Positions 17,901 through 63,052 of a stretch of DNA of 64,000 nucleotides are shown here, one piece after another. Where the stretch lies: contig NC_134440.1 in the NCBI RefSeq assembly GCF_030867145.1, forward strand, positions 6,510,001 to 6,574,000, written 5' to 3'. A model generated the notes under the pieces. The model saw only the letters and a list, made by a program, of their open reading frames with translations, did not search any database and was not told where the DNA came from. Made by a program: the position numbers and the translations under genes. Every line of letters starts with the position of its first letter. The first letter of the stretch is position 1. Origin of the DNA: Opisthocomus hoazin. Lineage: Eukaryota; Chordata; Aves; Opisthocomiformes; Opisthocomidae.

Positions 17901-17904
17901 CCAG

Positions 17905-26100: not shown

Positions 26101-29100
26101 GGGTGGCCAAGGTCCTCTCGGAGCACCACTGACATCTGCTGTAATCTTGGCTGGCTGCGAAGGAGGAGTAAGCAATATGTCCTGCACGTCTGCTTGGGGA
26201 GGATTTTTTTTCCCCCCTCACCTTTGAAGCTTGCGAATACCGTCCGGGTGCGTTGCACGTCCCATTCCCTAATGGTTCCCAGCCGGTCCTTTCTGTCCTG
26301 CGTGAAGGCCGTGTCTCAGTGCTGCCCGCGCTGTGACTCCTGCCCGAGGAAGTAGGTGTTGTACGTGTGAGATCATCTTCGAGCAATGTCAGGGATGTTT
26401 TTGGTCTCTGTGCCTTTTTCCTTAGGGCTAAATGTTTCTTTCAGCTCAGCTGTTTCTTTCAGCTCAGTTGCAGTCAAAGACCATAATTAAATAGGCTGCA
26501 TCTGCTTGGGGTCTTAGCTACTCATTTTGCTAATGCCTTCAGACGGATGCTGCTGTGTCAGGCTCCCCACTTCTCAGGAATGAGCTCTCCATAGGAAGAG
26601 GAAGTTTGTCTGTAGGACGGGTACTGCCTTGATGCCGCAGGAGCCATATTAAAAGCCTTCTCACCCTGCTCAGGTGACAATTTCTTCTGGAAAATGGTCG
26701 GTGTTCGCTTCTTGATGCGCGTGGCCAAGCCCAGGGGATGTTTGGGTTTTTTTTTCCCTGCAGTTTTGCCATTCCATGTCACCCCCTCCTCATCTCTGTG
26801 CCGGGCCCTGCAGCCGCAGCCTGACCCCAGCTCGAGAACTCGTCCTTGTCTCGCGGCAGGGCCAGTGCCTGGCTGCAGTCTCGGGCCGGCTCGGATGCGA
26901 GCGGAGTCGCTGGAATCGGACAGATCTTACAGAAAATAACCAGGAACAGAGTCATACCGTGCCGAGGATGCTGCCAGTCCTCCGGGAGCCGTGTGGAGGG
27001 CGACGCTCGTGCTGCTTTATGGTTTGTTTGTTTTAAAGGACGTTTCTTTCTCCATCTCCAGCATAAGGAAATGATTGCATGCAAATGCATCCCCGGGACT
27101 GATTTCCTGCTGGGGATCACGGCAGGCTCGGCACCTGCTGTCCACATTGTTGGTGGCTTGGAGCAGGTCCTGCTTCGGCTCCGGACGTGGCACCGCGTGG
27201 AGCGGGCGCAGTCCCCGGGTGCCTCCGCCTCGGCGTTTTGCTGCAGGATGTGGTCAGGCTGTGACACAGCTCTCGGTAACCAAAGCTGCTGCCTCGTGCC
27301 CAGACGTCCCCCCGCGGCGTTCGCTACTTCCCCTAACCACGCCTGTGCTGTGGTCACACACCTCCTAAGGACACGTTTTCGGGGGTTTTTCTTCTTTTCG
27401 ACTCTCACTCAGGGTCGCAGCAGCTGTTTTAGCGTGTGTGGCGAAAGCACGCGTGCCGTGAATTCACCTTGCAGCCCAGAGTGGATCTCGCTGAGCCGCG
27501 TTAAAATCGGGTTTTGGTTTCTCCCGACGCGTGTCGTGGCCCGTGTCGCAGCAGGAGTTTGGATCTCTGCTGTTACAGAGGTTACTGAGCCCGTTCCCGC
27601 AGGAAAAGCAGCGCTGGGAGATGTCGAGCCTGCTCTTAGTGGGACGAACTGAAGTGGTTTGGGTTTTCTTCCTTGCCATAATTAAATAAGAAAAACATTA
27701 GGCCTTGGTTTAAATCTTTCTAATCTTTCTCCGGAGAAGAAGTGCTGATTAGCACGCTGCAGCATCTGTCGGAGACGGGCTGAGCTGCGGCGAAGGTGGT
27801 CTTGACCTTGAATTTGGGATTTTCCTGCCAACATTTGAGGGCACAGATTACCTATTTGAACAACACTGTGGCTTCATGTAAACCTAAGCAGATCTCTGCT
27901 TGGTGACAGGGATTTGTTTGCCAGCTTCCTTACGAAGTTATGGAAACTCTTTATTTGCCCGATTGGGTAAGGCGTCAGCTGTACTTAATTTCTGTTACTT
28001 GATTTGTTTCTCTATCCACCACATATAAAATAATATTTTTGGTACACATTCTGCCCTAAGCTTCCATCAAAGAGCAGCTCGACACAAATTATACGAGGGG
28101 ATGGATGTGGGAACAAAGGAGGTATAATTAGCTACAGATAAATAGAGCTGTGCTGCTCGTCAGCATCCTTTCAGATCTTAACTTGTGTCTCACCCTCTTG
28201 GAGCTAATTCTTTGCCACAGACTGGAAGAGGAAGGTGAGCTTTCCCTGGTCTCCCAGCTTTCAACCAGCCTTGAAGTCAGCTAAACTGAAGTGAAAAATA
28301 TGTTTATGGTCTGTCTGCACCTGCAGAAGAGGCTGTGGCTGCGCTGAGAGCTGGGGTTATTTCAGGGTACTCTCTTTCCGGGTGCCTGAGCTGCGACTTC
28401 TTCTTCTTCTTCTTGTTCCCCTCCCCCCGTTCGTGCCGGGTTCCCAGTGCTACGGCAGCGCGCAGCCCCTGCTCGCCAGGCGCTTTCGTTGGTGTGCAGC
28501 TGGCCGCGGATCTGAGCTTTGCTGGAGGTTGGTCGTAGCCTCACCTTCTCGGCAGGCTGATTTGCAAAGAGGTGGGGGGGAAGCGGAGGTGAAAAATCTG
28601 ACCCAGGTAAAACCAACTTGTAACTCTTGGTGTGTCGGAGCTGAATGGGGGGGTCTCCTTGTTTCTGTGGGGTTTGGGTCTCAGCGTGCTGATGTCGGGG
28701 TGAGCGGCAGCGATCGCCTGCAGAGGCCGAGCTGGGGAGGACTGCGCCCCGACGTCTCGCTCTGCCCCTTCCCGTCGCGCCTCTTCCCTCTGGGGCTGGC
28801 CCCTCCGGCCCCACGCTGCGCGAGGGAGGCCTTCCAGGGGCGGCTCTTCATTCCGATCCGCTGCAAGCTGGGCTGCGAAGAGGAGGGGGGGGAAGGAAAG
28901 CTGGCGTCGGCTTCCCCTGCTGCTCAGATCTGGGGCAAGGGCCCAGATGGTATCCCAGATCTCTTCCTATGGGATTTAGGCAAGGTTTCCTGTTGAGAGC
29001 ACTGCTTCTAATCGCTGCCCTTCTGTGCTGCCTTGCAGATTGGGACCAGATGAGCAGAGGGAGGTTTCTGTGAAGATCAGAGCCCCGGGAAGTGACCCAG

Positions 29101-29162
29101 CAGCGCCGCGTCTCCGGCTGTTGTCGCTACGGTCCTGGAAAAGCAAGAAGAGGAGAAGCAAA

Positions 29163-32100
29163 ATGTCCCATGCTTTAAAGCAAGTGTTCAATAAAGACAA
29201 AACCTTCCGGCCCAAGCGCAAGTTTGAGCCGGGGACTCAGCGGTTTGAGCTGCACAAGAAGGCTCAGGCCTCGCTCAACGCTGGCCTGGACTTGAAAGTG
29301 GCCGTCCAGCTGCCGCCAGGAGAGGAGCAGAACGACTGGGTGGCCGTGCACGTGGTGGACTTCTTCAACCGCATCAACCTGATCTATGGCACCATCAGTG
29401 ACTATTGCACGGAGCAGTCCTGCCCTGTCATGTCGGGGGGCCCCAAGTACGAGTACCGATGGCAGGACGAGCACAAGTACCGAAAACCCACAGCCCTTTC
29501 TGCTCCCCAGTACATGAACCTCTTGATGGACTGGATTGAGGTACAGATCAACAACGAGGACATCTTTCCCACAAATGTTGGTGAGTTTGGGCTGGAGGGC
29601 GGAGAGGGGCTGGTGCAGAGCCTTCTGCTTTGAGCTCTTGGGTCCCGTTCCTGGTCCGGGAGATGCCGTTGCATAGGTCACCCACAGAATCACAGAATGG
29701 TGGGGGTTGGCAGGGCCCTCTGTGGGTGACCCAGCCCAACCCCCCGCCGAAGCAGGGTCACCCAGAGCAGGCTGCACAGCACTGCGTCCAGGCAGAGCTT
29801 GAATATCTCCAGAGAAGGAGACTCCACAACCTCCCTGGGCAGCCTGGGCCAGGGCTCCGTCACCCTCAGAGTGAAGAAGTTCTTCTTCGGGTTCTTCTGC
29901 TGCTACCCGAGCAGCAGAGCTAGTTCCTTTGTGCTGCGCAGAGGCTGGCGGCGTAGTAAGCTCTTCTGAGCACTTGAGAAAGTTCAGAGCTCTTGTGGAG
30001 TGCTAAAATACCCCGAGCTGTGCCAGATCCCCTGTGGAGTCCTGGATCCCTCGAGGAAAGCCGAGCTGAGCCTAGGCAGCGAAAACAAGAGGCTGCTCTT
30101 GGAGAAGTCGGTCTCTGACATGACTCTTGCGTCCTTCATGCTGGACGTGGTCTCCTGACGGACGGCTCTTTCGGAGCTGATTGCTAGCTTGGGTTCGAGG
30201 CGCGTGCTCAGCATCGGCCTGGTGATGGTGGCCGCGTTTCCATAATTAGCCTCTTTATTATTACAGGCTGGCGTTAGCTGACTCTGCCCTTTCTAGCTCG
30301 GGGCTTCCTGGCGTGCCCTTGGCTGTTTGTTGCAGTGGGGTGGGATGCTGACATGTGCGGGGAGGGAGGGGCAGGGTTTGATCTGTTGCCAGGGTGATGG
30401 AAAGGAGAATTTGGCCAAAGACACCTAAACCTGCATATCCAGACGCAGTTTTGTGTACTGGCTTTGGGACAAGGATTGTTGGCTTTTTTGTTTATTTTGT
30501 GCTGAGTAAGGCATGAGAACTCAGTGTCTAACGCATGAGGTAAATATGATTGATCCCACCCAGAGCTTTCATCTTCTGGGACGCCAAAGACAAGAGGCAG
30601 CAGAGCTCCCTCCCTCCTGCCCCGGCGTTCATCCCGTCGGAGCTCTGATGGGACGAGGTTGGCCTCTGACAGGGACACGTCTGCCGCCTCTGCCACACCG
30701 GCATCCGCGGAGCTCTGCCAGAACGCTGCTGAAACCCGGCGTGAGCGGGCAGAGCGGGGAGCTGGGCCGTAAAGAGCCGGTCCTTCAGACAGCTGCAGCG
30801 CTGCAGTCCTCCCCGCCTGTTCCTCCGGTCGCCCGAACGGCTGCTGCCTGGCTTTGGCGTTGCTGTTTCCAGCTCCGCTTCTACCAGATTCCTCGCCCTT
30901 AAGGCTGACTGACGCGCTGCGGTTCTTGCGGAGCGCTGAAAGGGTCGAACTAATCCCCGCTCCTCCAGAAGCAACCTGTGTGGACTTTAAAGTGTAATAT
31001 TCTGCGGAGATGGGCAGTTGGCCAGGCCACTCCGCAGCAGGGCCCTGGCTACGCAGATGCCGAAGCACTGCCACCTTTAAAGGGGACCTTAAAGTCTTTC
31101 ATTCTTAACCAAAGAGCTAAAGACAGACCAAAATACGAGATAACTGTGAGGAGTGAACAGCACCGAGTCTTGCTTTTGGGAAGTTGCTGCTGGAGTGGAA
31201 CTCGGTCGTGTCTGGTGTTTGTGTAAACACGACGAGTAGGAGTAGAAGAGAGCTCTGTCAGACTGCAGCAGCTGCTGGGAATCTCCGAGGCTGGTCTCTT
31301 GCTTTTGGTCGCTGGCAGCGATCGATGGCACGCAGCGCTCCGTCGCTTAAGAAGTCTGTGCTTTGAAAAATCTGATCCCAATGGAAGGGAAGAAGGAGAG
31401 GGGAACTGGGAATTACCAGGGACAGAAGCCCTCTGGCCTCAATCAGTCAGTTTTATCAGTTTATTTTAGCCCCGAGGAACTGGTTTTGACTTGGCTGAAG
31501 GTTTCTCGTGGTTGTGCCTCTCCTCCCAGGTACTCCCTTCCCCAAGAACTTCCTCCCGGTGGTGAAGAAGATCCTGTCCAGGCTGTTCCGGGTCTTTGTC
31601 CACGTCTACATCCACCATTTTGACAGGATCACCCAGATGGGGTCGGAAGCCCACGTCAACACCTGCTACAAGCACTTTTACTACTTCGTGAAAGAGTTCA
31701 ATCTCATAGACACCAAGGAGCTGGAACCGCTGGTGAGTGGCTGCCTGAGCTCGGGGCACGCGTTGGTCTGTCGGGGTCCGCAGCCGGTGGGGTGGGCTGG
31801 GGCTGGAGGGGTCGCAGAGGTCTCTGGAGCGTCCTCGAAACCAGTTCCCCAAATTCAGGCCATCGGTTGGCCTCGCGGTTTTACTGTCGGGGAACTGGGA
31901 GTGGGGACGTGCGAGCGCAGCTGAGCCGGGGCCGGTTGGGCATTGGCTGGGGGAAGCTGACTTGTTCCCCAGTGGCCTCCTTGCGTTTCCAGCAGCTGGC
32001 TCGCCGTGGCTGCGTGCGCGGCGTGAGCCTGGCGCTGTTAGCCATCCAGGGCGCAGAGGGAAGGGTAGAACCTCCATCCCTGCGCTTACTTCCCATGCTG

Positions 32101-32652
32101 AAGAGCAAGGACAACACCACTGCCCTCACAAGGAGTCTGGAGGGTGGGACCAGTTAGGCCTGGGAGGTGGTGATGGTGTTTCTAAAGCCGTGAGCAGCAG
32201 AGCTGACGTGCAGAGCCGTTGGGCAGCGGTGCCTGGCCGCGGGGGGAGCAGGGACCTGCCCAAACTGGAGCTCTCGGTAGCGTAGAGTCGTAGAATCACT
32301 GAGGTTGGAAAAGACCTCGAAGATCAAGTGCAGCTGTCAACCCAACACCCCCATGCCTGCCAAACCATGTCCTGAAGTGCCACGTCTACACGGTTTTGAA
32401 CCCCTCCAGGGATGGGGACTCCCCCACTGCCCTGGGCAGCCTGGGCCAAGGCCCTGACCACTCGTTCAGTGAAGAAATTTCAGGAAAGCAATAAAGCAGT
32501 GTCACCACGTGCCTGAGAAGGGCGTTTCCGACTACACAAAGGTGAGGCTTTCTCATCTGCACCCTCACCTGGCAGTCTGGGTCTTCATTCGTGGTCCCTT
32601 GTCTTCTCTGTCCCTTTGGCAGAAGGAAATGACCTCCCGGATGTGCCACTGA
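29163..32652 (+). CDS. MOB3A: MOB kinase activator 3A, copy 1 (3 coding exons)
   Basis: MOB-family scaffold; MOB3 proteins are reported to bind MST-type kinases of the Hippo pathway. Coding exons 29163-29580, 31530-31732 and 32623-32652 (stop 32650-32652) give 216 residues, against 217 in human. Exon 2 starts at 29039 with non-coding sequence. The ATG at 29163 has A at -3 and is followed by the conserved [20 protein letters not shown]. Zinc ligands are present: Cys82 and Cys87 (CTEQSC), His164 and His169 (HVYIHH). The C-terminus is [10 protein letters not shown] 7-codon upstream ORF starts at 29050, and the frame is open upstream of the ATG to the exon start. This copy alone is joined to the promoter/exon 1 region and keeps the conserved Asp80 and Ile129, so it looks like the ancestral gene. 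Confidence 0.96.
29684..29903 (-). repeat. CR1 3' fragment in MOB3A intron 2 (unit 1)
   Basis: Antisense CR1 tail (ACAGAATCACAGAATGGTGG, then the CACCCAGAGCAGGCTGCACA block) about 100 bp after the exon 2 donor. Present at the same place in units 2 (41384-41603) and 3 (53088-53307), so it predates the duplications. Confidence 0.93.
32284..32480 (-). repeat. CR1-like 3' fragment in MOB3A intron 3 (unit 1)
   Basis: TAGAATCACTGAGGTTGGAA, then AACCATGTCCTGAAGTGCCA and GAACCCCTCCAGGGATGGGG, an older CR1-type avian repeat in reverse orientation ending near GTGAAGAAATTTC. It is repeated in units 2 and 3 (about 43984-44180 and 55688-55884). Confidence 0.8.
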
Positions 32653-33940
32653 GACCAGAGCTTCCTGCGCCCGCCTCGGCGTCTCTCCTGAGGGCTCCGA
32701 GTCCCGCTCCTGCGCCGGAGCCGTGATGCAAGCGAAGAACAGAGAGACGCTTTGTTAAAGAAATCTATATATTTTTAATGAGTTTCAATGTAAAACTGTG
32801 ATGTTGCAGGAATATTTTTTTAAAGATGCTCTAGATAAACTAGTTTTTTATAGTAATTTCTATAAAAAAAAAAAAAAAAAAAATATTTTTGGCCGCTTGG
32901 TGGAAATGCTTGCTCTGTGGGGAGGGAGGAGCCGCCCCGTGCTGCCTCTGCCTCGAGGGTCCCCTCTCTGCAGCGGCACCAAGCGAGCCGAGCCGGATGC
33001 CTCAGAAAGAGCCACGCGGTGTGTCTGGTGCTGCCGTGGCAGCGGTGCTTCCCTCCCGACACCCATTTCCCACCCGGGAAGGGAGGTTACCTGGGGACCG
33101 GGGAAGAAACGCCAGTGTACGTGGATCCCCTGCGGTGCTGTTTGGTTCCAGCACCTCTTGCACCGGCTGCGAGTCCCGTTTTGGGACAGAGCTGCTTTTG
33201 TGCTCGCCCTCCGCTTGGCCTCCTGTCCCCGAGGCTTGGCCCTCCTTGCTTTCCCTCTGAAAGAAGCTGACCTTGGGTTTCTTTGGTGGCGAGGCCAGCG
33301 CTGCCACCGCTGATGGCGTCCGAGCCGAGCTGCTCCCTGCGCTCAGCCCAGCGGCGGGGTCCCACGGGGGCTGGGGAGCCGCGCTGGCAGCGTTCGGCCG
33401 GGCTCACCTGTGCCTGGGGGGAGCGAGCAGAGGGAAGGCGCTGGGGCAGGCGTGGGGAAGCCGCTTCCCCATCTCGTGGTACGCTGACCCTGCTGAGAAG
33501 GAACTGGGCTGCTGGCCCTCCGGCCTCGCTTACTGGCGGTGTGGGGGCCATTTTCTGCTTCCCAAGAGGGTACGGAGCCTTCTCCCTCTTCCCGAGCAGC
33601 ACGGCCCCCCGCAGCCACGCGCGTCTCGTAACCAAAGCTGCAGACCGACGGCCCCGCTGCTGCTCGCGCAAGCGACTCGGCGGCGTGGCGAGGGCTTTGC
33701 AGGGCCCTCGAGGTAGGTAGATGGGTCTACCTAGGATCGGAGGGTTTACAGTAGGACAAAAGGTTTCTATGAACAATGACCAAAACGTACCGCTAACCAC
33801 TTCTTCCTTACAAAGTTTTTCTGTGTCCTGGAATCTCTGTACGTATGTGACTCTCATTTCTCGTACTGTCGGTTGGACGCTCGTACCAATACCACTGTAG
33901 TTCTCTGAAACGGAACAATAAATTATGTCGTATTTACATA
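32653..33940 (+). other. MOB3A: MOB3A 3' UTR, copy 1
   Basis: From the stop to about 20 bases past an AATAAA at 33917-33922. Contains an A20 homopolymer (about 32864-32883) followed by TATTTTT. In copies 2 and 3 the tract is A19-G-A4 and A18-G-A4, which makes it a natural tag for each copy. The last 200 bp are A/T-rich and unlike the GC-rich surroundings, as expected for the conserved end of a 3' UTR. Confidence 0.7.
33917..33922 (+). terminator. MOB3A copy 1 poly(A) signal AATAAA
   Basis: Canonical hexamer in GGAACAATAAATTATG, followed by T/G-rich sequence (ATGTCGTATTT). The same signal lies at 45621-45626 and 57324-57329 in the other copies. Read-through of this signal would be needed for the MOB3A promoter to reach copies 2 and 3. 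Confidence 0.7.
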
Positions 33941-35849
33941 GCACGCCCCGATTGCTGAATGTCTCGTGGTCACGCGTTCGCCAGAGGGGTTTTATCAGCA
34001 AAATAAACAGGGTGTGTTTGGGCTCCCCGGGAAGGCCGCTGGAGTTGCTGAAAGCTCTTGGGCGAGCGCTTCTGGCCGTGCTGCCCTCGGGTTTGGTTCC
34101 TCCTGCTCTGGGGGGCCGGGGCTGCCCCCAGCTCCCCGTGCGTTCCCGGGGCCATGGGGCAGAGCACGCGGGCCTGGAGCTCACCCAGGGGGCTGGGGTC
34201 GTCCTGATTTGTCTTTCCAATGTCCCTGTACCCAAGGGCTGCTTCTCCCAGCCATAAACCTTGGGTGGATGTGGGCTGGAGAGGTGAACTCGAGTTTCCC
34301 CGCTTGCTGTTGGGCTCTTCGCTGCCGAGTAGCCGTGGGGCTGACGGGCTGCACTGGCCAAGGCTCTGCGTTCGGGGTCCGCAGGCTGTTTTCCGGAGGG
34401 GGAGAGGAATCCTGGGCTCTGCAGCCGTAGCTCCTGCCTGTCCCGGACCCAGCCGTGCCCTGCCTGCAGCACCAGGCCCTCCCGCTCCCCTGGCATGTCT
34501 GCCGCAGGCTCCCTGCCCAGCCCAGCTGCTGGTCCCCCCCAAGCCCCCTCCCGCCCCTCTCCTGGGTTTTCGTGGGTGCAGCTCAGCCGCAGCCCTGTCT
34601 CCCCTCGGCTGGGTGCTGCTGGAGGGTTTGGCGTGGCTGCCCGGTGCTGTGGCCCGAGCCCCCCGCGGAGCTGAGACCCAGCGCTGCTGGGGAGGGGGGG
34701 CAGCAACCCCCCAGCCCCTGCTGCCCCCGGGAGTGAGCGAGGCCGGATGCTGCGCAGGGGCAGGAAAGGGCACAAACCCGCATCCGCTGCTCTGTGTCGC
34801 ACGCTGTCCCCAACAGAGGGGGCAGTCCCTCGCTGCCTCGCCTTACCCAAGGGCTTGGCCAGTGGCAGCATAAAAAAAGGGGCCCTCGGGTTCATTTCTG
34901 CCCCCTGCGAAGCCAAGAGGGTGCCAGGATGCAGCCACTGGCCCCAGCGTCTGCCAGCCCGGGGGTGGTCGAGCCCCCGCCGCGGCTCCAATGCCCTGTG
35001 CGGGCAGCGAGGGTGCAGGGGGGGTGGTTCTGGGGATTTGGGACATTTTCTGCTCCTTCAGGGAAACCGGGCACTGCGCCAGCCTGGACCCCCCCCTCCC
35101 AGCGCATCCCCCAGCTCCCGGGGCGCCCGCAGCGAGCTGGCTGCAGTGCGTCGGGGATGCTCCTGTGGCTTTCGCCCCTTCCCGGGGAATCTGGAGGATG
35201 GAGAGGGGCAAAAAAGAGCCCCGGTTGTTTAAAAGCCGCCTGGAAATGCTTCTCCCATCTGCTGCCAGCGAGCAAGGCGGGACCCCCGCTGCGGCACGGC
35301 GCAAGCCCCCTCACCCCAAGCACCCTGAAAGCGCAGCTCCCAGAGCTCCCGGCCCGTGTTCTGGGGGTGCAGGGGTTTCCCCTCCCGCAGCGACTCGCCC
35401 CGTCTTCCCCATGGACGCCCGCGCCGAGGCCCCGCTCAGCCCCGCCATCGCCAGCTCCTCGCGCCCCGGGTCTTGGCCGGTGCAGAGCAGTGGAGCTGGG
35501 GCCGGCCGTGTCCCTGCGGGGCTGCTGGGGGCCGGGGGGTGCTCCCCACTGCACCGGCGTCTCCCCTCAAAGGTGTTTTGGGGCGTGAAACCACCCTGTG
35601 CCATGTTTGTGCCCTCCCCCGGGGCCACGCTACCCGGCTGCTTCGGCTGCGGGGTTACGGGTGCTCCCTAACCCCAAGGCATCTGGCTGGGGAAACTGAG
35701 GCACGGCACAACGCTCCCTGCCCCGCGCGTGGCCGCCCTTCCTTGGGCAGCTCTGCCGCGGGGGGCCCTGGGCGTAGGGGGAGGCACCCCCAAAATACGA
35801 GAAACCCAAGTGGGGTTTGGGGACCGGGGACACGTCCCTGGGGAGAAAC
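33941..35849. other. GC-rich spacer between MOB3A 3' end and CR1 (unit 1)
   Basis: About 1.9 kb without a recognised gene or repeat. Several long open frames on both strands (for example a 634-residue minus-strand frame over 33087-34991) reflect high GC. Their predicted proteins are Pro/Gly/Arg/Ala-rich with no family resemblance. The spacer recurs almost unchanged at about 45645-47553 and 57348-59256. Confidence 0.6.
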
Positions 35850-36259
35850 CCAGCTACTGAAGGTGAAGGGCTCTGGAGCAGAGGCTCGCGCCGAGGGACC
35901 CTTTCTCCAGTGGCAAAACCGCAGCGGCGAGGCGGCAAAAAGTGCCGAGAGAGAGAGAGGAGACCCCAGCCCTCCCCCGAGCGGGAAAGCGGGAAGTGCC
36001 AACGAGCGGCAGCTCTGCCTCAGCGGGCGCGGAGTCGAGTGTGACAGCGGCCAAACCCCCGCACGGGTAAGAGCGGCCCCCAGGGAGCGCGAGCGACCAG
36101 AGCCGGCAAACAGAGCCGGCGCAGCAGCCCGGGAGCGGCGCAGCAGTTTGCGCAGCAGTTTGCGCAGCAGTTCGAGCGGGGAAGGCGACTGGCAGGGTGC
36201 AGCCGCCCCTGCTGGCAACTCAAGCAGGGGGCATCGCCTATCCAGGAGATATTCTAGCC

Positions 36260-37355
36260 ATGGTTACCAGCCGTGGGAAAGCTGTTGCTCGAAGGAGTGT
36301 GGGGACCCAGACGGAGGCCCCCACGCAAGAACGCGGGTGTCCAGGTCTCTGGCTGCAGGGAGGGCCTGAGCCTGGCGCTCGTACCGGAGGACAGCAGAGA
36401 CAGCGGCTGTGTTCGGTGCGAGCAGGTGAATGACCTGCTCAGCCTGGTGGCAGAGCTGAAGGAGGAAGTGGAGAGGCTGAGGAGCATCCGGGAGTGTGAG
36501 AGGGAGATCGACTGGTGGAGCCGCACCCTGCCCTCCCTGAGGCAGAGGCAGCAGGAGGCGGCTCCACAGAAAGCAGAGAACCCCCTACGCTCTTGCCACC
36601 GAGCAGAAAGAGGGGACCTAAGAGATGGGGGGGAATGGAAACGGGTTCCTGCTCGGGGTGGCAAGCGAATCTCCCCCCGGCCTCCCTCACCTGCCCAGTT
36701 GCCCTTAAGCAACAGATATGGGGCTCTGGAATATGAGGGACTGGCCACAGAGGATGTGGGTGAAGGTGAAGCTCCATCCAGGGGGTTGCCTAGAACGAGT
36801 CAGACAGCCCCACGTATTACAACTGCCTCAACTAAGAAAAAAAGGAGGGTCATTGTCATAGGTGATTCCCTTCTGAGGGGAACAGAGGGCCCGATCTGCC
36901 GACCGGACCCATCCCACAGGGAAGTCTGCTGGCTCCCTGGGGCCCGGGTTAGGGATGTTGCGAAGAGACTCCCTGGTCTGGTGCAGCCTTCTGATTACTA
37001 CCCCCTCTTGGTAATGCAGGTTGGCGGGGACGAGATCGCAGAAAGAAGTCCCAAGGCCATCAAAAGGGACTTCAGGGCACTGGGGCGACTGGTTGAGGGA
37101 TCAGGGGCGCAGGTGGTGTTTTCCTCCATCCCATCAGTGGCAGGGAACAGCACTGAAAGGGGCAGGAAAACTCACCTGGTTAACAGGTGGCTCAGGGACT
37201 GGTGCCATCAGTCAAATTTTGGCTTCTTTGATCATGGGGAGGTGCACACAGCACCGGGCCTGCTGGCGACAGGTGGAACTCAGCTATCTCAAAGGGGAAA
37301 AAGAATTCTTGGCCACGAGCTGGCCCCGGGGCTCATTGAGAGGGCTTTAAACTAG
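36260..37355 (+). pseudogene. CR1 ORF1 (coiled coil plus SGNH-esterase-like domain), unit 1
   Basis: Starts MVTSRGKAVARRSVGTQTE, then changes frame once near 36330; the rest is open in the 36273 frame to 37355. Contains a coiled coil (VNDLLSLVAELKEEVERLRS) and an esterase domain beginning RRVIVIGDSLLRGTEG, with GDS at 36861-36869. The usual DGxHLS block that supplies catalytic Asp and His reads GGTQLS (GGTQ at 37272-37283), so the esterase is probably inactive even apart from the frame change. CR1 ORF1 proteins are thought to bind RNA and lipids in the retrotransposition particle. Confidence 0.85.
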
Positions 37356-37411
37356 GTTCGAAGGGGGGAGGGGATATTGCCCAGCTCACTAGGGATGAGC
37401 CTAGGCTTGGC

Positions 37412-47963: not shown

Positions 47964-49059
47964 ATGGTTACCAGCCGTGGGAAAGCTGTTGCTCGAAGGA
48001 GTGTGGGGACCCAGACGGAGGCCCCCACGCAAGAACGCGGGTGTCCAGGTCTCTGGCTGCAGGGAGGGCCTGAGCCTGGCGCTCGTACCGGAGGACAGCA
48101 GAGACAGCGGCTGTGTTCGGTGCGAGCAGGTGAATGACCTGCTCAGCCTGGTGGCAGAGCTGAAGGAGGAAGTGGAGAGGCTGAGGAGCATCCGGGAGTG
48201 TGAGAGGGAGATCGACTGGTGGAGCCGCACCCTGCCCTCCCTGAGGCAGAGGCAGCAGGAGGCGGCTCCACAGAAAGCAGAGAACCCCCTACGCTCTTGC
48301 CACCGAGCAGAAAGAGGGGACCTAAGAGATGGGGGGGAATGGAAACGGGTTCCTGCTCGGGGTGGCAAGCGAATCTCCCCCCGGCCTCCCTCACCTGCCC
48401 AGTTGCCCTTAAGCAACAGATATGGGGCTCTGGAATATGAGGGACTGGCCACAGAGGATGTGGGTGAAGGTGAAGCTCCATCCAGGGGGTTGCCTAGAAC
48501 GAGTCAGACAGCCCCACGTATTACAACTGCCTCAACTAAGAAAAAAAGGAGGGTCATTGTCATAGGTGATTCCCTTCTGAGGGGAACAGAGGGCCCGATC
48601 TGCCGACCGGACCCATCCCACAGGGAAGTCTGCTGGCTCCCTGGGGCCCGGGTTAGGGATGTTGCGAAGAGACTCCCTGGTCTGGTGCAGCCTTCTGATT
48701 ACTACCCCCTCTTGGTAATGCAGGTTGGCGGGGACGAGATCGCAGAAAGAAGTCCCAAGGCCATCAAAAGGGACTTCAGGGCACTGGGGCGACTGGTTGA
48801 GGGATCAGGGGCGCAGGTGGTGTTTTCCTCCATCCCATCAGTGGCAGGGAACAGCACTGAAAGGGGCAGGAAAACTCACCTGGTTAACAGGTGGCTCAGG
48901 GACTGGTGCCATCAGTCAAATTTTGGCTTCTTTGATCATGGGGAGGTGCACACAGCACCGGGCCTGCTGGCGACAGGTGGAACTCAGCTATCTCAAAGGG
49001 GAAAAAGAATTCTTGGCCACGAGCTGGCCCCGGGGCTCATTGAGAGGGCTTTAAACTAG
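47964..49059 (+). pseudogene. CR1 ORF1, unit 2
   Basis: Same as unit 1 ORF1, including the single frame change and the GGTQLS replacement of the catalytic block, so it did not evolve separately. Confidence 0.85.
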
Positions 49060-49115
49060 GTTCGAAGGGGGGAGGGGATATTGCCCAGCTCACTAGGGAT
49101 GAGCCTAGGCTTGGC

Positions 49116-52053: not shown

Positions 52054-52220
52054 GTGTGCAGGGAGCGTGCAGGGAGTGTGCAGAGAGGCCAGGCGTACAC
52101 AGGGAGCAAGTCGCGAGCGTGGAGCATGAGCAGTGACCACGCAAGGAGCACGCGGTAAGTGTGCATTAAGCGTGCAGTGAGTGTGCAGACAGGCCAGGAG
52201 CGTGCAGGGAGCTTTCTACG

Positions 52221-52342
52221 AAAGGACAAGGGGCAACGGGCACAAACTGAAGCAGAGGAAGCTCCAGCTGAACCCGAGGAAGAACTTCTTCCCTCTGAGG
52301 GTGACGGAGCCCTGGCCCAGGCTGCCCAGGGAGGCTGTGGAT
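52221..52342 (+). repeat. CR1 fragment at the junction of units 2 and 3
   Basis: Same fragment and same fusion point (GAGGCTGTGGATGGGCCCAG) as at 40517-40638. Identity of the two junctions shows that one founding breakpoint was later amplified. Confidence 0.92.
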
Positions 52343-52566
52343 GGGCCCAGATGGTATCCCAGATCTCTTCCTATGGGATTTAGGCAAGGTTTCCTGTTGA
52401 GAGCACTGCTTCTAATCGCTGCCCTTCTGTGCTGCCTTGCAGATCGGGACCAGATGAGCAGAGGGAGGTTTCTGTGAAGATCAGAGCCCCGGGAAGTGGC
52501 CCAGCAGTGCCGCGTCTCTGGCTGTTGTCGCTACGGTCCTGGAAAAGCAAGAAGAGGAGAAGCAAA

Positions 52567-55500
52567 ATGTCCCGCGCTTTAAAGCAAGTGTTCAATAAAG
52601 ACAAAACCTTCCGGCCCAAGCGCAAGTTTGAGCCGGGGACTCAGCGGTTTGAGCTGCACAAGAAGGCTCAGGCCTCGCTCAACGCTGGCCTGGACTTGAA
52701 AGTGGCCGTCCAGCTGCCGCCAGGAGAGGAGCAGAACGACTGGGTGGCCGTGCACGTGGTGGACTTCTTCAACCGCATCAACCTGATCTATGGCACCATC
52801 AGTGTCTATTGCACGGAGCAGTCCTGCCCTGTCATGTCGGGGGGCCCCAAGTACGAGTACCGATGGCAGGACGAGCACAAGTACCGAAAACCCACAGCCC
52901 TTTCTGCTCCCCAGTACATGAACCTCTTGATGGACTGGATTGAGGTACAGACCAACAACGAGGACATCTTTCCCACAAATGTTGGTGAGTTTGGGCTGGA
53001 GGGCGGAGAGGGGCTGGTGCAGAGCCTTCTGCTTTGAGCTCTTGGGTCCCGTTTCTGGTCCGGGAGATGCCGTTGCATAGGTCACCCACAGAATCACAGA
53101 ATGGTGGGGGTTGGCAGGGCCCTCTGTGGGTGACCCAGCCCAACCCCCCGCCGAAGCAGGGTCACCCAGAGCAGGCTGCACAGCACTGCGTCCAGGCAGA
53201 GCTTGAATATCTCCAGAGAAGGAGACTCCACAACCTCCCTGGGCAGCCTGGGCCAGGGCTCCGTCACCCTCAGAGTGAAGAAGTTCTTCTTCGGGTTCTT
53301 CTGCTGCTACCCGAGCAGCAGAGCTAGTTCCTTTGTGCTGCGCAGAGGCTGGCGGCGTAGTAAGCTCTTCTGAGCACTTGAGAAAGTTCAGAGCTCTTGT
53401 GGAGTGCTAAAATACCCCGAGCTGTGCCAGATCCCCTGTGGAGTCCTGGATCCCTCGAGGAAAGCCGAGCTGAGCCTAGGCAGCGAAAACAAGAGGCTGC
53501 TCTTGGAGAAGTCGGTCTCTGACATGACTCTTGCGTCCTTCATGCTGGACGTGGTCTCCTGACGGACGGCTCTTTCGGAGCTGATTGCTAGCTTGGGTTC
53601 GAGGCGCGTGCTCGGCATCGGCCTGGTGATGGTGGCCGCGTTTCCATAATTAGCCTCTTTATTATTACAGGCTGGCGTTAGCTGACTCTGCCCTTTCTAG
53701 CTCGGGGCTTCCTGGCGTGCCCTTGGCTGTTTGTTGCAGTGGGGTGGGATGCTGACATGTGCGGGGAGGGAGGGGCAGGGTTTGATCTGTTGCCAGGGTG
53801 ATGGAAAGGAGAATTTGGCCAAAGACACCTAAACCTGCATATCCAGACGCAGTTTTGTGTACTGGCTTTGGGACAAGGATTGTTGGCTTTTTTTTTTATT
53901 TTGTGCTGAGTAAGGCATGAGAACTCAGTGTCTAACGCATGAGGTAAATATGATTGATCCCACCCAGAGCTTTCATCTTCTGGGACGCCAAAGACAAGAG
54001 GCAGCAGAGCTCCCTCCCTCCTGCCCCGGCGTTCATCCCGTCGGAGCTCTGATGGGACGAGGTTGGCCTCTGACAGGGACACGTCTGCCGCCTCTGCCAC
54101 ACCGGCATCCGCGGAGCTCTGCCAGAACGCTGCTGAAACCCGGCGTGAGCGGGCAGAGCGGGGAGCTGGGCCGTAAAGAGCCGGTCCTTCAGACAGCCGC
54201 AGCGCTGCAGTCCTCCCCGCCTGTTCCTCCGGTCGCCCGAACGGCTGCTGCCTGGCTTTGGCGTTGCTGTTTCCAGCTCCGCTTCTACCAGATTCCTCGC
54301 CCTTAAGGCTGACTGACGCGCTGCGGTTCTTGCGGAGCGCTGAAAGGGTCGAACTAATCCCCGCTCCTCCAGAAGCAACCTGTGTGGACTTTAAAGTGTA
54401 ATATTCTGCGGAGATGGGCAGTTGGCCAGGCCACTCCGCAGCAGGGCCCTGGCTATGCAGATGCCGAAGCACTGCCACCTTTAAAGGGGACCTTAAAGTC
54501 TTTCATTCTTAACCAAAGAGCTAAAGACAGACCAAAATACGAGATAACTGTGAGGAGTGAACAGCACCGAGTCTTGCTTTTGGGAAGTTGCTGCTGGAGT
54601 GGAACTCGGTCGTGTCTGGTGTTTGTGTAAACACGACGAGTAGGAGTAGAAGAGAGCTCTGTCAGACTGCAGCAGCTGCTGGGAATCTCCGAGGCTGGTC
54701 TCTTGCTTTTGGTCGCTGGCAGCGATCGATGGCACGCAGCGCTCCGTCGCTTAAGAAGTCTGTGCTTTGAAAAATCTGATCCCAATGGAAGGGAAGAAGG
54801 AGAGGGGAACTGGGAATTACCAGGGACAGAAGCCCTCTGGCCTCAATCAGTCAGTTTTGTCAGTTTATTTTAGCCCCGAGGAACTGGTTTTGACTTGGCT
54901 GAAGGTTTCTCGTGGTTGTGCCTCTCCTCCCAGGTACTCCCTTCCCCAAGAACTTCCTCCCGGTGGTGAAGAAGATCCTGTCCAGGCTGTTCCGGGTCTT
55001 TGTCCACGTCTACATCCACCATTTTGACAGGATCACCCAGATGGGGTCGGAAGCCCACGTCAACACCTGCTACAAGCACTTTTACTACTTCGTGAAAGAG
55101 TTCAATCTCATAGACACCAAGGAGCTGGAACCGCTGGTGAGTGGCTGCCTGGGCTCGAGGCACGCGTTGGTCTGTCGGGATCCGCAGCTGGTGGGGTGGG
55201 CTGGGGCTGGAGGGGTCGCAGAGGTCTCTGGAGCGTCCTCGAAACCAGTTCCCCAAATTCAGGCCATCGGTTGGCCTCGCGGTTTTACTGTCGGGGAACT
55301 GGGAGTGGGGACGTGCGAGCGCAGCTGAGCCGGGGCCGGTTGGGCATTGGCTGGGGGAAGCTGACTTGTTCCCCAGTGGCCTCCTTGCGTTTCCAGCAGC
55401 TGGCTCGCCGTGGCTGCGTGCGCGGCGTGAGCCTGGCGCTGTTAGCCATCCAGGGCGCAGAGGGAAGGGTAGAACCTCCATCCCTGCGCTTACTTCCCAT

Positions 55501-56056
55501 GCTGAAGAGCAAGGACAACACCACTGCCCTCACAAGGAGTCTGGAGGGTGGGACCAGTTAGGCCTGGGAGGTGGTGATGGTGTTTCTAAAGCCGTGAGCA
55601 GCAGAGCTGACGTGCAGAGCCGTTGGGCAGCGGTGCCTGGCCGCGGGGGGAGCAGGGACCTGCCCAAACTGGAGCTCTCGGTAGCGTAGAGTCGTAGAAT
55701 CACTGAGGTTGGAAAAGACCTCGAAGATCAAGTGCAGCTGTCAACCCAACACCCCCATGCCTGCCAAACCATGTCCTGAAGTGCCACGTCTACACGGTTT
55801 TGAACCCCTCCAGGGATGGGGACTCCCCCACTGCCCTGGGCAGCCTGGGCCAAGGCCCTGACCACTCGTTCAGTGAAGAAATTTCAGGAAAGCAATAAAG
55901 CAGTGTCACCACGTGCCTGAGAAGGGCGTTTCCGACTACACAAAGGTGAGGCTTTCTCATCTGCACCCTCACCTGGCAGTCTGGGTCTTCATTCGTGGTC
56001 CCTTGTCTTCTCTGTCCCTTTGGCAGAAGGAAATGACCTCCCGGATGTGCCACTGA
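52567..56056 (+). CDS. MOB3A: MOB3A copy 3 (3 coding exons, no own promoter)
   Basis: Coding exons 52567-52984, 54934-55136 and 56027-56056, with the exon 2 acceptor at 52442/52443. 216 residues, intact, zinc ligands and splice sites kept. Shares His3Arg, Asp80Val and Ile129Thr with copy 2 but has Glu103 and the nearby CCGAAAA of copy 1. It has private intronic changes clustered just after the exon 3 donor (about 55150-55192). Like copy 2 it has no promoter or first exon of its own. Confidence 0.9.
53088..53307 (-). repeat. CR1 3' fragment in MOB3A intron 2 (unit 3)
   Basis: Copy of 29684-29903 by segmental duplication. Confidence 0.93.
55688..55884 (-). repeat. CR1-like 3' fragment in MOB3A intron 3 (unit 3)
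   Basis: Copy of 32284-32480 by segmental duplication. Confidence 0.8.
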
Positions 56057-57347
56057 GACCAGAGCTTCCTGCGCCCGCCTCGGCGTCTCTCCTGAGGGCT
56101 CCGAGTCCCGCTCCTGCGCCGGAGCCGTGATGCAAGCGAAGAACAGAGAGACGCTTTGTTAAAGAAATCTATATATTTTTAATGAGTTTCAATGTAAAAC
56201 TGTGATGTTGCAGGAATATTTTTTTAAAGATGCTCTAGATAAACTAGTTTTTTATAGTAATTTCTATAAAAAAAAAAAAAAAAAAGAAAATATTTTTGGC
56301 CGCTTGGTGGAAATGCTTGCTCTGTGGGGAGGGAGGAGCCGCCCCGTGCTGCCTCTGCCTCGAGGGTCCCCTCTCTGCAGCGGCACCAAGCGAGCCGAGC
56401 CGGATGCCTCAGAAAGAGCCACGCGGTGTGTCTGGTGCTGCCGTGGCAGCGGTGCTTCCCTCCCGACACCCATTTCCCACCCGGGAAGGGAGGTTACCTG
56501 GGGACCGGGGAAGAAACGCCAGTGTACGTGGATCCCCTGCGGTGCTGTTTGGTTCCAGCACCTCTTGCACCGGCTGCGAGTCCCGTTTTGGGACAGAGCT
56601 GCTTTTGTGCTCGCCCTCCGCTTGGCCTCCTGTCCCCGAGGCTTGGCCCTCCTTGCTTTCCCTCTGAAAGAAGCTGACCTTGGGTTTCTTTGGTGGCGAG
56701 GCCAGCGCTGCCACCGCTGATGGCGTCCGAGCCGAGCTGCTCCCTGCGCTCAGCCCAGCGGCGGGGTCCCACGGGGGCTGGGGAGCCGCGCTGGCAGCGT
56801 TCGGCCGGGCTCACCTGTGCCTGGGGGGAGCGAGCAGAGGGAAGGCGCTGGGGCAGGCGTGGGGAAGCCGCTTCCCCATCTCGTGGTACGCTGACCCTGC
56901 TGAGAAGGAACTGGGCTGCTGGCCCTCCGGCCTCGCTTACTGGCGGTGTGGGGGCCATTTTCTGCTTCCCAAGAGGGTACGGAGCCTTCTCCCTCTTCCC
57001 GAGCAGCACGGCCCCCCGCAGCCACACGCGTCTCGTAACCAAAGCTGCAGACCGACGGCCCCGCTGCTGCTCGCGCAAGCGACTCGGCGGCGTGGCGAGG
57101 GCTTTGCAGGGCCCTCGAGGTAGGTAGATGGGTCTACCTAGGATCGGAGGGTTTACAGTAGGACAAAAGGTTTCTATGAACAATGACCAAAACGTACCGC
57201 TAACCACTTCTTCCTTACAAAGTTTTTCTGTGTCCTGGAATCTCTGTACGTATGTGACTCTCATTTCTCGTACTGTCGGTTGGACGCTCGTACCAATACC
57301 ACTGTAGTTCTCTGAAACGGAACAATAAATTATGTCGTATTTACATA
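56057..57347 (+). other. MOB3A: MOB3A 3' UTR, copy 3
   Basis: Matches copies 1 and 2, with poly(A) tract A18-G-A4 and AATAAA at 57324-57329. Confidence 0.65.
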
Positions 57348-59256
57348 GCACGCCCCGATTGCTGAATGTCTCGTGGTCACGCGTTCGCCAGAGGGGTTTT
57401 ATCAGCAAAATAAACAGGGTGTGTTTGGGCTCCCCGGGAAGGCCGCTGGAGTTGCTGAAAGCTCTTGGGCGAGCGCTTCTGGCCGTGCTGCCCTCGGGTT
57501 TGGTTCCTCCTGCTCTGGGGGGCCGGGGCTGCCCCCAGCTCCCCGTGCGTTCCCGGGGCCATGGGGCAGAGCACGCGGGCCTGGAGCTCACCCAGGGGGC
57601 TGGGGTCGTCCTGATTTGTCTTTCCAATGTCCCTGTACCCAAGGGCTGCTTCTCCCAGCCATAAACCTTGGGTGGATGTGGGCTGGAGAGGTGAACTCGA
57701 GTTTCCCCGCTTGCTGTTGGGCTCTTCGCTGCCGAGTAGCCGTGGGGCTGACGGGCTGCACTGGCCAAGGCTCTGCGTTCGGGGTCCGCAGGCTGTTTTC
57801 CGGAGGGGGAGAGGAATCCTGGGCTCTGCAGCCGTAGCTCCTGCCTGTCCCGGACCCAGCCGTGCCCTGCCTGCAGCACCAGGCCCTCCCGCTCCCCTGG
57901 CATGTCTGCCGCAGGCTCCCTGCCCAGCCCAGCTGCTGGTCCCCCCCAAGCCCCCTCCCGCCCCTCTCCTGGGTTTTCGTGGGTGCAGCTCAGCCGCAGC
58001 CCTGTCTCCCCTCGGCTGGGTGCTGCTGGAGGGTTTGGCGTGGCTGCCCGGTGCTGTGGCCCGAGCCCCCCGCGGAGCTGAGACCCAGCGCTGCTGGGGA
58101 GGGGGGGCAGCAACCCCCCAGCCCCTGCTGCCCCCGGGAGTGAGCGAGGCCGGATGCTGCGCAGGGGCAGGAAAGGGCACAAACCCGCATCCGCTGCTCT
58201 GTGTCGCACGCTGTCCCCAACAGAGGGGGCAGTCCCTCGCTGCCTCGCCTTACCCAAGGGCTTGGCCAGTGGCAGCATAAAAAAAGGGGCCCTCGGGTTC
58301 ATTTCTGCCCCCTGCGAAGCCAAGAGGGTGCCAGGATGCGGCCACTGGCCCCAGCGTCTGCCAGCCCGGGGGTGGTCGAGCCCCCGCCGCGGCTCCAATG
58401 CCCTGTGCGGGCAGCGAGGGTGCAGGGGGGGTGGTTCTGGGGATTTGGGACATTTTCTGCTCCTTCAGGGAAACCGGGCACTGCGCCAGCCTGGACCCCC
58501 CCCTCCCAGCGCATCCCCCAGCTCCCGGGGCGCCCGCAGCGAGCTGGCTGCAGTGCGTCGGGGATGCTCCTGTGGCTTTCGCCCCTTCCCGGGGAATCTG
58601 GAGGATGGAGAGGGGCAAAAAAGAGCCCCGGTTGTTTAAAAGCCGCCTGGAAATGCTTCTCCCATCTGCTGCCAGCGAGCAAGGCGGGACCCCCGCTGCG
58701 GCACGGCGCAAGCCCCCTCACCCCAAGCACCCTGAAAGCGCAGCTCCCAGAGCTCCCGGCCCGTGTTCTGGGGGTGCAGGGGTTTCCCCTCCCGCAGCGA
58801 CTCGCCCCGTCTTCCCCATGGACGCCCGCGCCGAGGCCCCGCTCAGCCCCGCCATCGCCAGCTCCTCGCGCCCCGGGTCTTGGCCGGTGCAGAGCAGTGG
58901 AGCTGGGGCCGGCCGTGTCCCTGCGGGGCTGCTGGGGGCCGGGGGGTGCTCCCCACTGCACCGGCGTCTCCCCTCAAAGGTGTTTTGGGGCGTGAAACCA
59001 CCCTGTGCCATGTTTGTGCCCTCCCCCGGGGCCACGCTACCCGGCTGCTTCGGCTGCGGGGTTACGGGTGCTCCCTAACCCCAAGGCATCTGGCTGGGGA
59101 AACTGAGGCACGGCACAACGCTCCCTGCCCCGCGCGTGGCCGCCCTTCCTTGGGCAGCTCTGCCGCGGGGGGCCCTGGGCGTAGGGGGAGGCACCCCCAA
59201 AATACGAGAAACCCAAGTGGGGTTTGGGGACCGGGGACACGTCCCTGGGGAGAAAC
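57348..59256. other. GC-rich spacer, unit 3
   Basis: Copy of 33941-35849, no gene recognised. Confidence 0.6.
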
Positions 59257-59666
59257 CCAGCTACTGAAGGTGAAGGGCTCTGGAGCAGAGGCTCGCGCCG
59301 AGGGACCCTTTCTCCAGTGGCAAAACCGCAGCGGCGAGGCGGCAAAAAGTGCCGAGAGAGAGAGAGGAGACCCCAGCCCTCCCCCGAGCGGGAAAGCGGG
59401 AAGTGCCAACGAGCGGCAGCTCTGCCTCAGCGGGCGCGGAGTCGAGTGTGACAGCGGCCAAACCCCCGCACGGGTAAGAGCGGCCCCCAGGGAGCGCGAG
59501 CGACCAGAGCCGGCAAACAGAGCCGGCGCAGCAGCCCGGGAGCGGCGCAGCGGTTTGCGCAGCGGTTTGCGCAGCAGTTCGAGCGGGGAAGGCGACTGGC
59601 AGGGTGCAGCCGCCCCTGCTGGCAACTCAAGCAGGGGGCATCGCCTATCCAGGAGATATTCTAGCC

Positions 59667-60762
59667 ATGGTTACCAGCCGTGGGAAAGCTGTTGCTCGAA
59701 GGAGTGTGGGGACCCAGACGGAGGCCCCCACGCAAGAACGCGGGTGTCCAGGTCTCTGGCTGCAGGGAGGGCCTGAGCCTGGCGCTCGTACCGGAGGACA
59801 GCAGAGACAGCGGCTGTGTTCGGTGCGAGCAGGTGAATGACCTGCTCAGCCTGGTGGCAGAGCTGAAGGAGGAAGTGGAGAGGCTGAGGAGCATCCGGGA
59901 GTGTGAGAGGGAGATCGACTGGTGGAGCCGCACCCTGCCCTCCCTGAGGCAGAGGCAGCAGGAGGCGGCTCCACAGAAAGCAGAGAACCCCCTACGCTCT
60001 TGCCACCGAGCAGAAAGAGGGGACCTAAGAGATGGGGGGGAATGGAAACGGGTTCCTGCTCGGGGTGGCAAGCGAATCTCCCCCCGGCCTCCCTCACCTG
60101 CCCAGTTGCCCTTAAGCAACAGATATGGGGCTCTGGAATATGAGGGACTGGCCACAGAGGATGTGGGTGAAGGTGAAGCTCCATCCAGGGGGTTGCCTAG
60201 AACGAGTCAGACAGCCCCACGTATTACAACTGCCTCAACTAAGAAAAAAAGGAGGGTCATTGTCATAGGTGATTCCCTTCTGAGGGGAACAGAGGGCCCG
60301 ATCTGCCGACCGGACCCATCCCACAGGGAAGTCTGCTGGCTCCCTGGGGCCCGGGTTAGGGATGTTGCGAAGAGACTCCCTGGTCTGGTGCAGCCTTCTG
60401 ATTACTACCCCCTCTTGGTAATGCAGGTTGGCGGGGACGAGATCGCAGAAAGAAGTCCCAAGGCCATCAAAAGGGACTTCAGGGCACTGGGGCGACTGGT
60501 TGAGGGATCAGGGGCGCAGGTGGTGTTTTCCTCCATCCCATCAGTGGCAGGGAACAGCACTGAAAGGGGCAGGAAAACTCACCTGGTTAACAGGTGGCTC
60601 AGGGACTGGTGCCATCAGTCAAATTTTGGCTTCTTTGATCATGGGGAGGTGCACACAGCACCGGGCCTGCTGGCGACAGGTGGAACTCAGCTATCTCAAA
60701 GGGGAAAAAGAATTCTTGGCCACGAGCTGGCCCCGGGGCTCATTGAGAGGGCTTTAAACTAG
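59667..60762 (+). pseudogene. CR1 ORF1, unit 3
   Basis: Same as ORF1 of units 1 and 2, including the frame change and GGTQLS. Confidence 0.85.
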
Positions 60763-60818
60763 GTTCGAAGGGGGGAGGGGATATTGCCCAGCTCACTAGG
60801 GATGAGCCTAGGCTTGGC

Positions 60819-63052
60819 GTGCCAAGGCCAGGCATGAGATTGACAGCCCAGCTCAAGTGTGTTTACACCAATGCACGTAGCATGGGCAATAAACAGGAGG
60901 AGCTGGAAGCCATTATACAGCAGGACGGCTACGACTTGGTCGCCATCACAGAAACGTGGTGGGACAACTGGCATGACTGGCATGCTGTCATGGATGGCTA
61001 CAGACTCTTTAGGAGAGACAGACCAACAAGGAGAGGTGGTGGAGTTGCTCTACATGTGAGGGAGCAACTGCAATGCATTGAGCTTGGCCTGGGGGCAAAT
61101 GAGGAACAAGTTGAAAGCTTGTGGGTTAGAATTAAGGGACAGGCTCATACAGGTGACATTGTGGTGGGTGTGTTCTACAGGCCACCTGAGCAGGAGGAGG
61201 AGGTTGATGAGGCCTTCTACAGGCAGCTGCAAGCAGCCTCACAGTCACAGGCCCTGGTTCTCATGGGGGACTTCAACCACCCTGACATCAGCTGGGAAGA
61301 CCATACAGCTAGGCAGGCGCAATCCAGGAGGTTCCTACAGAGCATCGATGATAACTTTCTGATGCAAGTGGTGGAGGAACCAACAAGGAAAGGCGCGCTG
61401 CTGGACCTTGTGTTAACAAACAAGGAGGGACTGGTGGAGGATTTGAAGGTAGGAGGTAGACTTGGCTGCAGTGACCATGAAATGGTCGAGTTCAGGATCC
61501 TGCGTAGAGGAAGCAGGGCGATAAGCAGGATCAAAACCTTGGACCTCAGGAGGGCTGACTTTGCCCTCTTCAAGGAGCTACTGGGAGGTATCCTGTGGGC
61601 CAGGGCTCTCGAAGGCAGGGGGGTCCAAGAGTGCTGGTCGCTCTTTAGATGTCACTTCCTCCATGCTCAGGAGCGGTGCATCCCCCTGAGCAGGAAATCT
61701 AGCAAAGGAGGTAGGAGACCTGCATGGTTAAACAAGGAGCTTCTAGCAGAGATCAGGTGGAAGAGAAAGGTCCATGGAATGTGGAAAGAGGGGCAGGCCA
61801 CTTGGGAAGAATACAGGAATGTTGTCAGAGAATGCAGGGATGCGACGAGGAAGGCCAAGGCCCACCTGGAATTGAAGCTGGTAAGGGATGTCAAAAACAA
61901 CAAGAAAGGCTTCTTCAACTACATCAGCAGCAAAAGGAAGGCTAGGGATAATGTGGGGCCGCTGCTGAATGAGGCGGGTGTCCTGGTGACGGAGGATGCG
62001 GAGAAGGCAGAGCTACTGAACGCCTTCTGTGCTTCAGTCTTCAGTGCCAAGGCGGGCCCTCAGGAATCCCAGGGCCCGGAGGTAAGAGAGGAAGCCTACA
62101 AAGAGAACGACTTTCCCTTGGTCGAGGAGGACTGTGTGAGGGATCGCTTAAGCGATCTGGAAGTCCACAAATCCATGGGCCCTGATGGAATGCACCCACG
62201 AGTGCTGAGGGAGCTGGCAGATGTCATTGCTGAGCCACTCTCCATCATCTTTGAGAGGTCCTGGAGGAAGGAGAGGTGCCCGAGGACTGGAGAAAGGCCA
62301 GTGTCACTCCAATCTTCAAAAAGGGCAAGAAGGAGGACCCAGGAAACTACAGGCCGGTCAGCCTCACCTCCATCCTGGGAAAGGTGATGGAGCAGCTTAT
62401 CCTGGAGGTCATCAACAAGCAAGTGGAGGAAAAGAAGGTTATCAGGAGTAGTCAGCATGGATTCACCAAAGGGAAATCATGCCTGACCAATCTGATAGCT
62501 TTCTACGATGACATGACTGACTGGGTAGATGAGGGGAGAGCCGTGGATGTAGTCTACCTCGGCTTCAGCAAGGCTTTGGACACGGTCTCCCATCACATCC
62601 TCCTAGGGAAGCTCAGGCAGTGTGGGCTGGACGAGTGGTCGATGAGGTGGATTGAGAACTGGCTGAATGGCAGAGCTCAGGGGGTTGTCATCAGCAGCGC
62701 TGAGTCTGGTTGGAGGCCGGTAACCAGTGGTGTGCCCCAGGGGTCAGTACTGGGCCCAGCCTTGTTTAACTTCTTCATCAGTGACCTGGATGAAGAGTTA
62801 GAGCGTACCCTCAGCAAGTTTGCTGATGACACCAAACTGGGAGGTGTGGTAGATACACGAGCAGGCTGTGCTGCCATCCAGCGTGACCTGGACAGGCTGG
62901 AGGGTTGGGCAGAGAGGAACCTGATGAGGTTCAACAAAGGCAAATGCAGGGTCCTGCACCTGGGGAGGATCAACCCCAGGCACCAGTACAGGTTGGGGCG
63001 GCCCTGCTGGAGAGCAGCTCTGCGGAGAGGGACTGGGAGTGCTGGGGGATGA
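60819..63052 (+). pseudogene. CR1 ORF2, unit 3, chimeric and interrupted
   Basis: 522 codons open from 60819, ending at 62387 after a frame change near 62265 (one base short relative to unit 1 within GGAGGACAGGAGAGG). The reverse transcriptase then continues in the 62276 frame to 63052, reading through [20 protein letters not shown] without the frame change seen there in units 1 and 2. The motif A catalytic Asp is Gly ([15 protein letters not shown], codon 62561-62563). It ends without the C-terminal region. The different set of lesions shows that this 3' half has a separate history. Confidence 0.87.

Follow-up and report, generated by a model that had tools for sequence, protein, structure and literature searches.

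Tandem segmental duplications that have grown by unequal crossing-over are a known kind of genomic array. We analysed an array of three units, each with a coding region of the Hippo-type adaptor gene MOB3A, in a 64,000-bp window of the hoazin (Opisthocomus hoazin) genome (contig NC_134440.1, here C27:6510001-6574000), and the whole assembly of 1.48 Gb in 415 contigs was searched for related sequences. The array is like tandem segmental duplications in its head-to-tail units, its mosaic middle unit, the divergence kept at its edges and the repeats at its junction. Unlike those formed between two like repeats, it has no CR1, as which we take the retroelement in each unit following the initial annotation, beside its left breakpoint (27500-28938); on the right, the breakpoint consists of a CR1 tail to which a CR1 fragment has been added. 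Among birds, the available passages of PMC4373106 describe PAK3-, PIM1- and PHF7-like expansions in the zebra finch that were not found in the canary, and a reference cited there concerns, by its title, accelerated evolution of the PAK3- and PIM1-like families. These expansions resemble the hoazin case in that host genes, two of them kinases, were amplified in one bird lineage, but in the hoazin the amplified gene appears to be MKNK2, which those passages do not name, with MOB3A as a passenger. In dog and pig, copy-number regions defined from arrays and listing MOB3A and MKNK2 (PMC7774950, PMC9375371) cover the equivalent neighbourhood; they differ in being mammalian and 36 and 522 kb long, and the passages available from both papers describe no unit structure.

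The best reading of the hoazin array, to which we give a probability of about 0.68, is a recent and real tandem duplication at the native locus (AP3D1 - MOB3A - MKNK2), enlarged to three units by unequal crossing-over, with unit 1 as the working MOB3A and units 2 and 3 silent or read through. Comparison of the window with itself aligned 28939-51434 to 40639-63133 at 99.4% identity and gave head-to-tail units of 11700, 11704 and 10791 bp, which bears out the three near-identical units of the initial annotation; at this length and identity, chance as the source of the similarity is excluded. Near-identity ends at 61442, where the annotation had placed it, and the match runs on to 63133 through a CR1 tail in which unit 3 differs from units 1 and 2 at 94 of 1691 sites (5.6%). 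Unit 3 lacks the final 908 bp of the unit. Over the 9.1-kb core (unit positions 1-9097), 13 sites differ between units 1 and 2, 22 between units 1 and 3 and 13 between units 2 and 3; outside the core, units 1 and 2 differ at 1 of 2603 sites. With these differences and a poly(A) stretch at about 32879 whose length varies by 3-4 bp between units, repetition of one read is unlikely, as had been argued before.

The differences are not evenly arranged. Units 1 and 3 differ at 22 core sites, and at these sites unit 2 agrees with one of them and then the other in blocks, forming 5 runs (P about 0.0014 by shuffling); unit 2 has only 2 private single-nucleotide polymorphisms in the three-way alignment. 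Divergence survives where the array meets its flanks, on the left side of unit 1 and on the right side of unit 3. Out-of-register crossing-over would produce such a pattern, a mosaic unit 2 with divergence at the outer edges. Because the CR1 tail of unit 3 is closer to a single-unit sister locus on the same chromosome (97-99% in 200-bp blocks) than the tails of units 1 and 2 (mostly 89-97%), the right edge of unit 3 appears to be the original one of the array.

At the junctions between units, CR1 tail, repeat-rich stretch, CR1 fragment and unit start follow each other in this order, twice in the array and at neither outer edge. Since the joined sequence comes from neither outer edge, at least one tandem duplication is needed, and its presence in two copies argues for at least one real duplication, while the exact number of units (2, 3 or more) is not proven. 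Head-to-tail copies, high identity and a shared junction together mark the array as a tandem segmental duplication, and the new junction sets it apart from a false duplication in assembly, although units may have been over-counted. The assembler may have over-expanded an array with one real duplication (two units, perhaps on one haplotype), the mosaic middle unit being the product of a haplotype switch, and the count of three is not proven because a haplotype-switch error could also make a mosaic. We consider this unlikely. Unit 2, as a block mosaic with few private changes, fits it; of 3180 candidates, the 40 that were scored included no further contig with the array's unit, which a second haplotype would be expected to give; and the assembly has possible haplotype pairs elsewhere (C34 2.62 Mb/C35 0.36 Mb; C34 3.85 Mb/C320/C336). 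Against it stand the junction, which requires a tandem duplication in any case, and the absence of any N in the window, in the 10 kb to its left or in the 30 kb to its right.

Under the favoured reading of a real tandem duplication, the first step would have joined a CR1 tail to DNA that starts 100 bp ahead of the MOB3A coding-exon acceptor, perhaps via template switching; the junction contains a second CR1 fragment of about 120 bp. The middle unit would have come from a later crossover, out of register, between arrays. Since then units 2 and 3 would have drifted, either silent or transcribed only by read-through from unit 1, with unit 1 as the working MOB3A. Two other ideas were rejected. Simple recombination between two like CR1 copies finds no CR1 match in 27500-28938 (at the sister locus a CR1 lies about 1 kb left of the unit start, not at the breakpoint), and a strong hairpin at the inverted repeat around the breakpoint is not borne out: the DNA fold is without significance (z = -1.42), and 19 of 200 shuffled sequences fold equally well. 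Four dispersed MOB3A copies, in two sequence classes, start within 6 bp of the array's left breakpoint. The sequence neighbouring these four copies is self-similar and has no match in the window; beside the copy in C31 it has a 497-bp tandem period, and beside C34b the tandem finder reports nothing.

We then considered whether the three MOB3A copies are working genes. In all three units, coding exons 1-3 encode 216 amino acids with no stop, GT donors and AG acceptors, and the residues of both motifs, which we take to be zinc motifs, are identical; the intact frames, splice sites and motif residues of the initial annotation were thus found again. The product belongs to the Mob1/phocein family (Pfam Mob1_phocein PF03637, 263 bits against a curated cut-off of 27), and its nearest solved chains are MOB1B/1A. 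Its neighbours AP3D1 and MKNK2 identify it as MOB3A rather than MOB3B/3C; other MOB3-like genes lie in C41 (87%) and C6 (80%, with an MKNK-like exon 50 kb away). Three open frames do not make three functional genes, a further step that the sequences do not support. The exon 1 acceptor, at 29038, lies 100 bp into unit 1, so units 2 and 3 begin 100 bp before their own acceptors and lack everything left of 28939. As the unit starts there, a leader exon or promoter further left would serve unit 1 alone, and only unit 1 keeps the upstream DNA in which they are expected. Derived H3R, D80V and I129T are common to units 2 and 3, which share no silent change; unit 2 has added E103K and one silent change, so that replacements make up 4 of the 5 derived coding changes. 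At the replaced positions unit 1 retains the residue of seven outgroup copies (the sister locus and six dispersed copies, only four sequence classes), its own change, at codon 3, being silent. Conversion of units 2 and 3 from an outgroup copy was rejected, their replacement alleles occurring in 0 of 7. We read units 2 and 3 as probable passengers under weak or no constraint, with positive selection possible.

Several observations weigh against this account. The coding changes are few, and so are the sequence classes behind the seven outgroup copies; the CpG-rich stretches within the unit could act as promoters; and, as no 5' leader of MOB3A was found, the lack of a promoter in units 2 and 3 is what we infer. 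Between unit 1 and units 2 and 3, 7 of 11 differences fall within the first 610 bp, where selection or a conversion tract is possible. Parts of the junction are matched in the sister locus, the joining alone being unique and seen only in the array. An adaptive triplication, in which three working MOB3A genes raise dosage or have gained new roles, is very improbable: the frames and splice sites of all three units are kept, each unit has poly(A)-like signals at equivalent positions and replacements with hardly any silent change make positive selection conceivable, but units 2 and 3 lack upstream DNA, their replacements strike residues kept in 7 of 7 outgroup copies, loss of constraint accounts equally for that pattern, and no MOB3A copy outside the array was found complete.

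The array sits at what is, on gene order, the native MOB3A locus, since AP3D1-like exons lie to its left and MKNK2 exons to its right (window-coordinates 67885-71970, beyond the window), in agreement with the order AP3D1, IZUMO4, MOB3A, MKNK2 in the portion of a pig gene list available from PMC9375371. The left exons were read as AP3D1 by eye; two of three scanned pieces match Adaptin_N and the third matches nothing. For the sister-locus equivalents of the MKNK2 exons, the best match is solved human MKNK2. The native MKNK2 copy is itself altered, with HRDV and a shortened tail stretch.

The sister locus lies 1.85 Mb away on the same strand and is collinear; identity is 91-97% in pieces above 1 kb and falls to 88% over the final 536 bp. 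It has a single unit into which the left flank continues directly, and it likely shows the arrangement before the triplication. We take it as a derived copy because its left end adjoins a minisatellite-like repeat (by eye). Its MOB3A exon 1 has 1-bp and 24-bp insertions and stops, and exon 3 is intact. Within it, C27:8400121-8403468 holds a 1355-bp tandem repeat of CR1 tail and repeat-rich stretch, 98.4% identical between copies.

A recent tandem triplication at this locus stands as the best reading, but MOB3A is not confined to the units: exon searches found 8 further MOB3A-derived copies, each broken or incomplete as read. Exon 1 gave 22 rows and exon 2 gave 16, of which 11 are of MOB3A type (three units, sister locus and seven dispersed copies in C24, C31, C34 (two), C35, C320 and C336). 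Exon 3 was not found in the seven dispersed copies (6-10 kb stretches, both strands, up to 8 mismatches; a more distant exon is possible), and window 31942-34779 matched their stretches in just 52-61-bp pieces at 77-79%, or not at all. Exon 1 has a common 1-bp insertion in C34b, C320 and C336 and no match in C24; since it shows no insertion or deletion in C31, C34a and C35, the decay of these three is indicated only by the missing exon 3 and by replacements. In an unrooted tree over 3 kb, leaving out C24 (927 bp only), the three units split from the rest, and the dispersed copies from units plus sister locus, each with support 100. Seven is an upper count because some dispersed copies are near-identical (0-0.17% apart) and perhaps assembly or haplotype duplicates; C34 3.85 Mb, C320 and C336 are 0-0.1% apart over 3 kb. 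C34 2.62 Mb and C35 0.36 Mb are 99.7% identical over 9.8 kb, a very recent copy or an assembly duplicate. Read depth over the whole unit would be confounded by paralogues at about 95%.

Table 1. Features of the hoazin array in window coordinates.
Feature	Position	Strand	Remarks
Unit 1, 11700 bp	28939..40638	+	joined to unique left flank; self-comparison, unit alignment
Unit 2, 11704 bp	40639..52342	+	mosaic of units 1 and 3; self-comparison, unit alignment
Unit 3, to end of near-identity	52343..61442	+	self-comparison, unit alignment
Unit 3, CR1 tail	61443..63133	+	meets right flank at 63133; alignment
MOB3A coding exon 1, unit 1	29163..29580	+	
MOB3A coding exon 2, unit 1	31530..31732	+	
MOB3A coding exon 3, unit 1	32623..32652	+	with stop
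MOB3A coding exon 1, unit 2	40863..41280	+	H3R, D80V, E103K, I129T
MOB3A coding exon 2, unit 2	43230..43432	+	
MOB3A coding exon 3, unit 2	44323..44352	+	with stop
MOB3A coding exon 1, unit 3	52567..52984	+	H3R, D80V, I129T
MOB3A coding exon 2, unit 3	54934..55136	+	
MOB3A coding exon 3, unit 3	56027..56056	+	with stop
Presumed CR1 retroelement, unit 1	35852..40300	+	ends approximate; long frames; dispersed genome matches from 35852 on
Further CR1 copies	about 47556-52004; 59259-63133	+	second cut short
Junction 1	40301..40638	+	repeat-rich stretch, second CR1 fragment (40515-40637), next unit
Junction 2	52005-52342	+	twin of junction 1
Inverted repeat, 9 nt, perfect	28926..28962	.	around left breakpoint (28938/28939)
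CpG-rich stretches inside unit	30601-31100, 33301-33800, 35701-36400		
CpG-rich stretch opening right flank	63101..64000	+	
Segment present once at C27:8371839-8416053 (sister locus)	10331..64000	+	homology to window-coordinate 75477; blastn of both loci

Each of the seven dispersed MOB3A copies has an MKNK2-like copy 15-17 kb downstream, and the array's segment is likely the source of a much larger MKNK2 amplification. A search with a 50-amino-acid MKNK2 exon returned 63 rows, all free of stops, 59 of them at 72-100%. Leaving out the two C27 loci and C6 (next to a MOB3-like gene and taken as MKNK1), there are up to 56 MKNK2-like copies, 29 on C11-C38 (C11, C24, C28, C31, C33, C34, C35, C38) and 27 on contigs numbered C125 or higher, among which haplotype duplicates are probable; one cluster, at C38:1652659-1774324, has a spacing of about 30 kb. 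The C11 copy as a processed retrocopy was rejected, a long open frame crossing non-exon sequence. All 24 copies read over two exons (two on C27 and 22 of the 56) are open, and their pooled ratio of replacement to silent differences (pN/pS) is 0.90 across 276 pairs, which are not independent; the two exons separately give 1.30 and 0.59. Seven exons were examined in five copies. One of these, the C34 copy located at 2.64 Mb, is frame-shifted in its final exon, which counts against uniformly open kinases, and this copy and the C31 one (2 of 5) have DFG instead of the MNK hallmark DFD. Among the titles and displayed abstracts found in literature searches on MKNK2/MNK2, none describes such an amplification, and in the available part of a turtle paper (PMC4054807) MKNK2 is named once, regarding expression.

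These results lead us to a broader proposal, which we hold tentatively and at somewhat short of an even chance. The AP3D1-MOB3A-MKNK2 segment may be the cradle of a lineage-specific family of MKNK2-derived kinases, many of its copies in clusters on small chromosomes, close to the ends of contigs and on unplaced ones, with kinase exons open and changing fast by replacement, some copies with DFG, and hitch-hiking MOB3A decaying. On this view the locus would be unstable and the MOB3A triplication one of its late by-products, and diversifying selection on the kinase, or its driven spread, would explain the pattern. Because the companion MOB3A copies decay and so serve as an internal control, MKNK2 would be the part that is being kept. 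The young tandem triplication of a Hippo-type adaptor gene offers a clean example of unequal crossing-over, with the sister locus as the picture before it, and in the wider context dozens of MKNK2-like kinases with largely open exons appear to derive from the segment.

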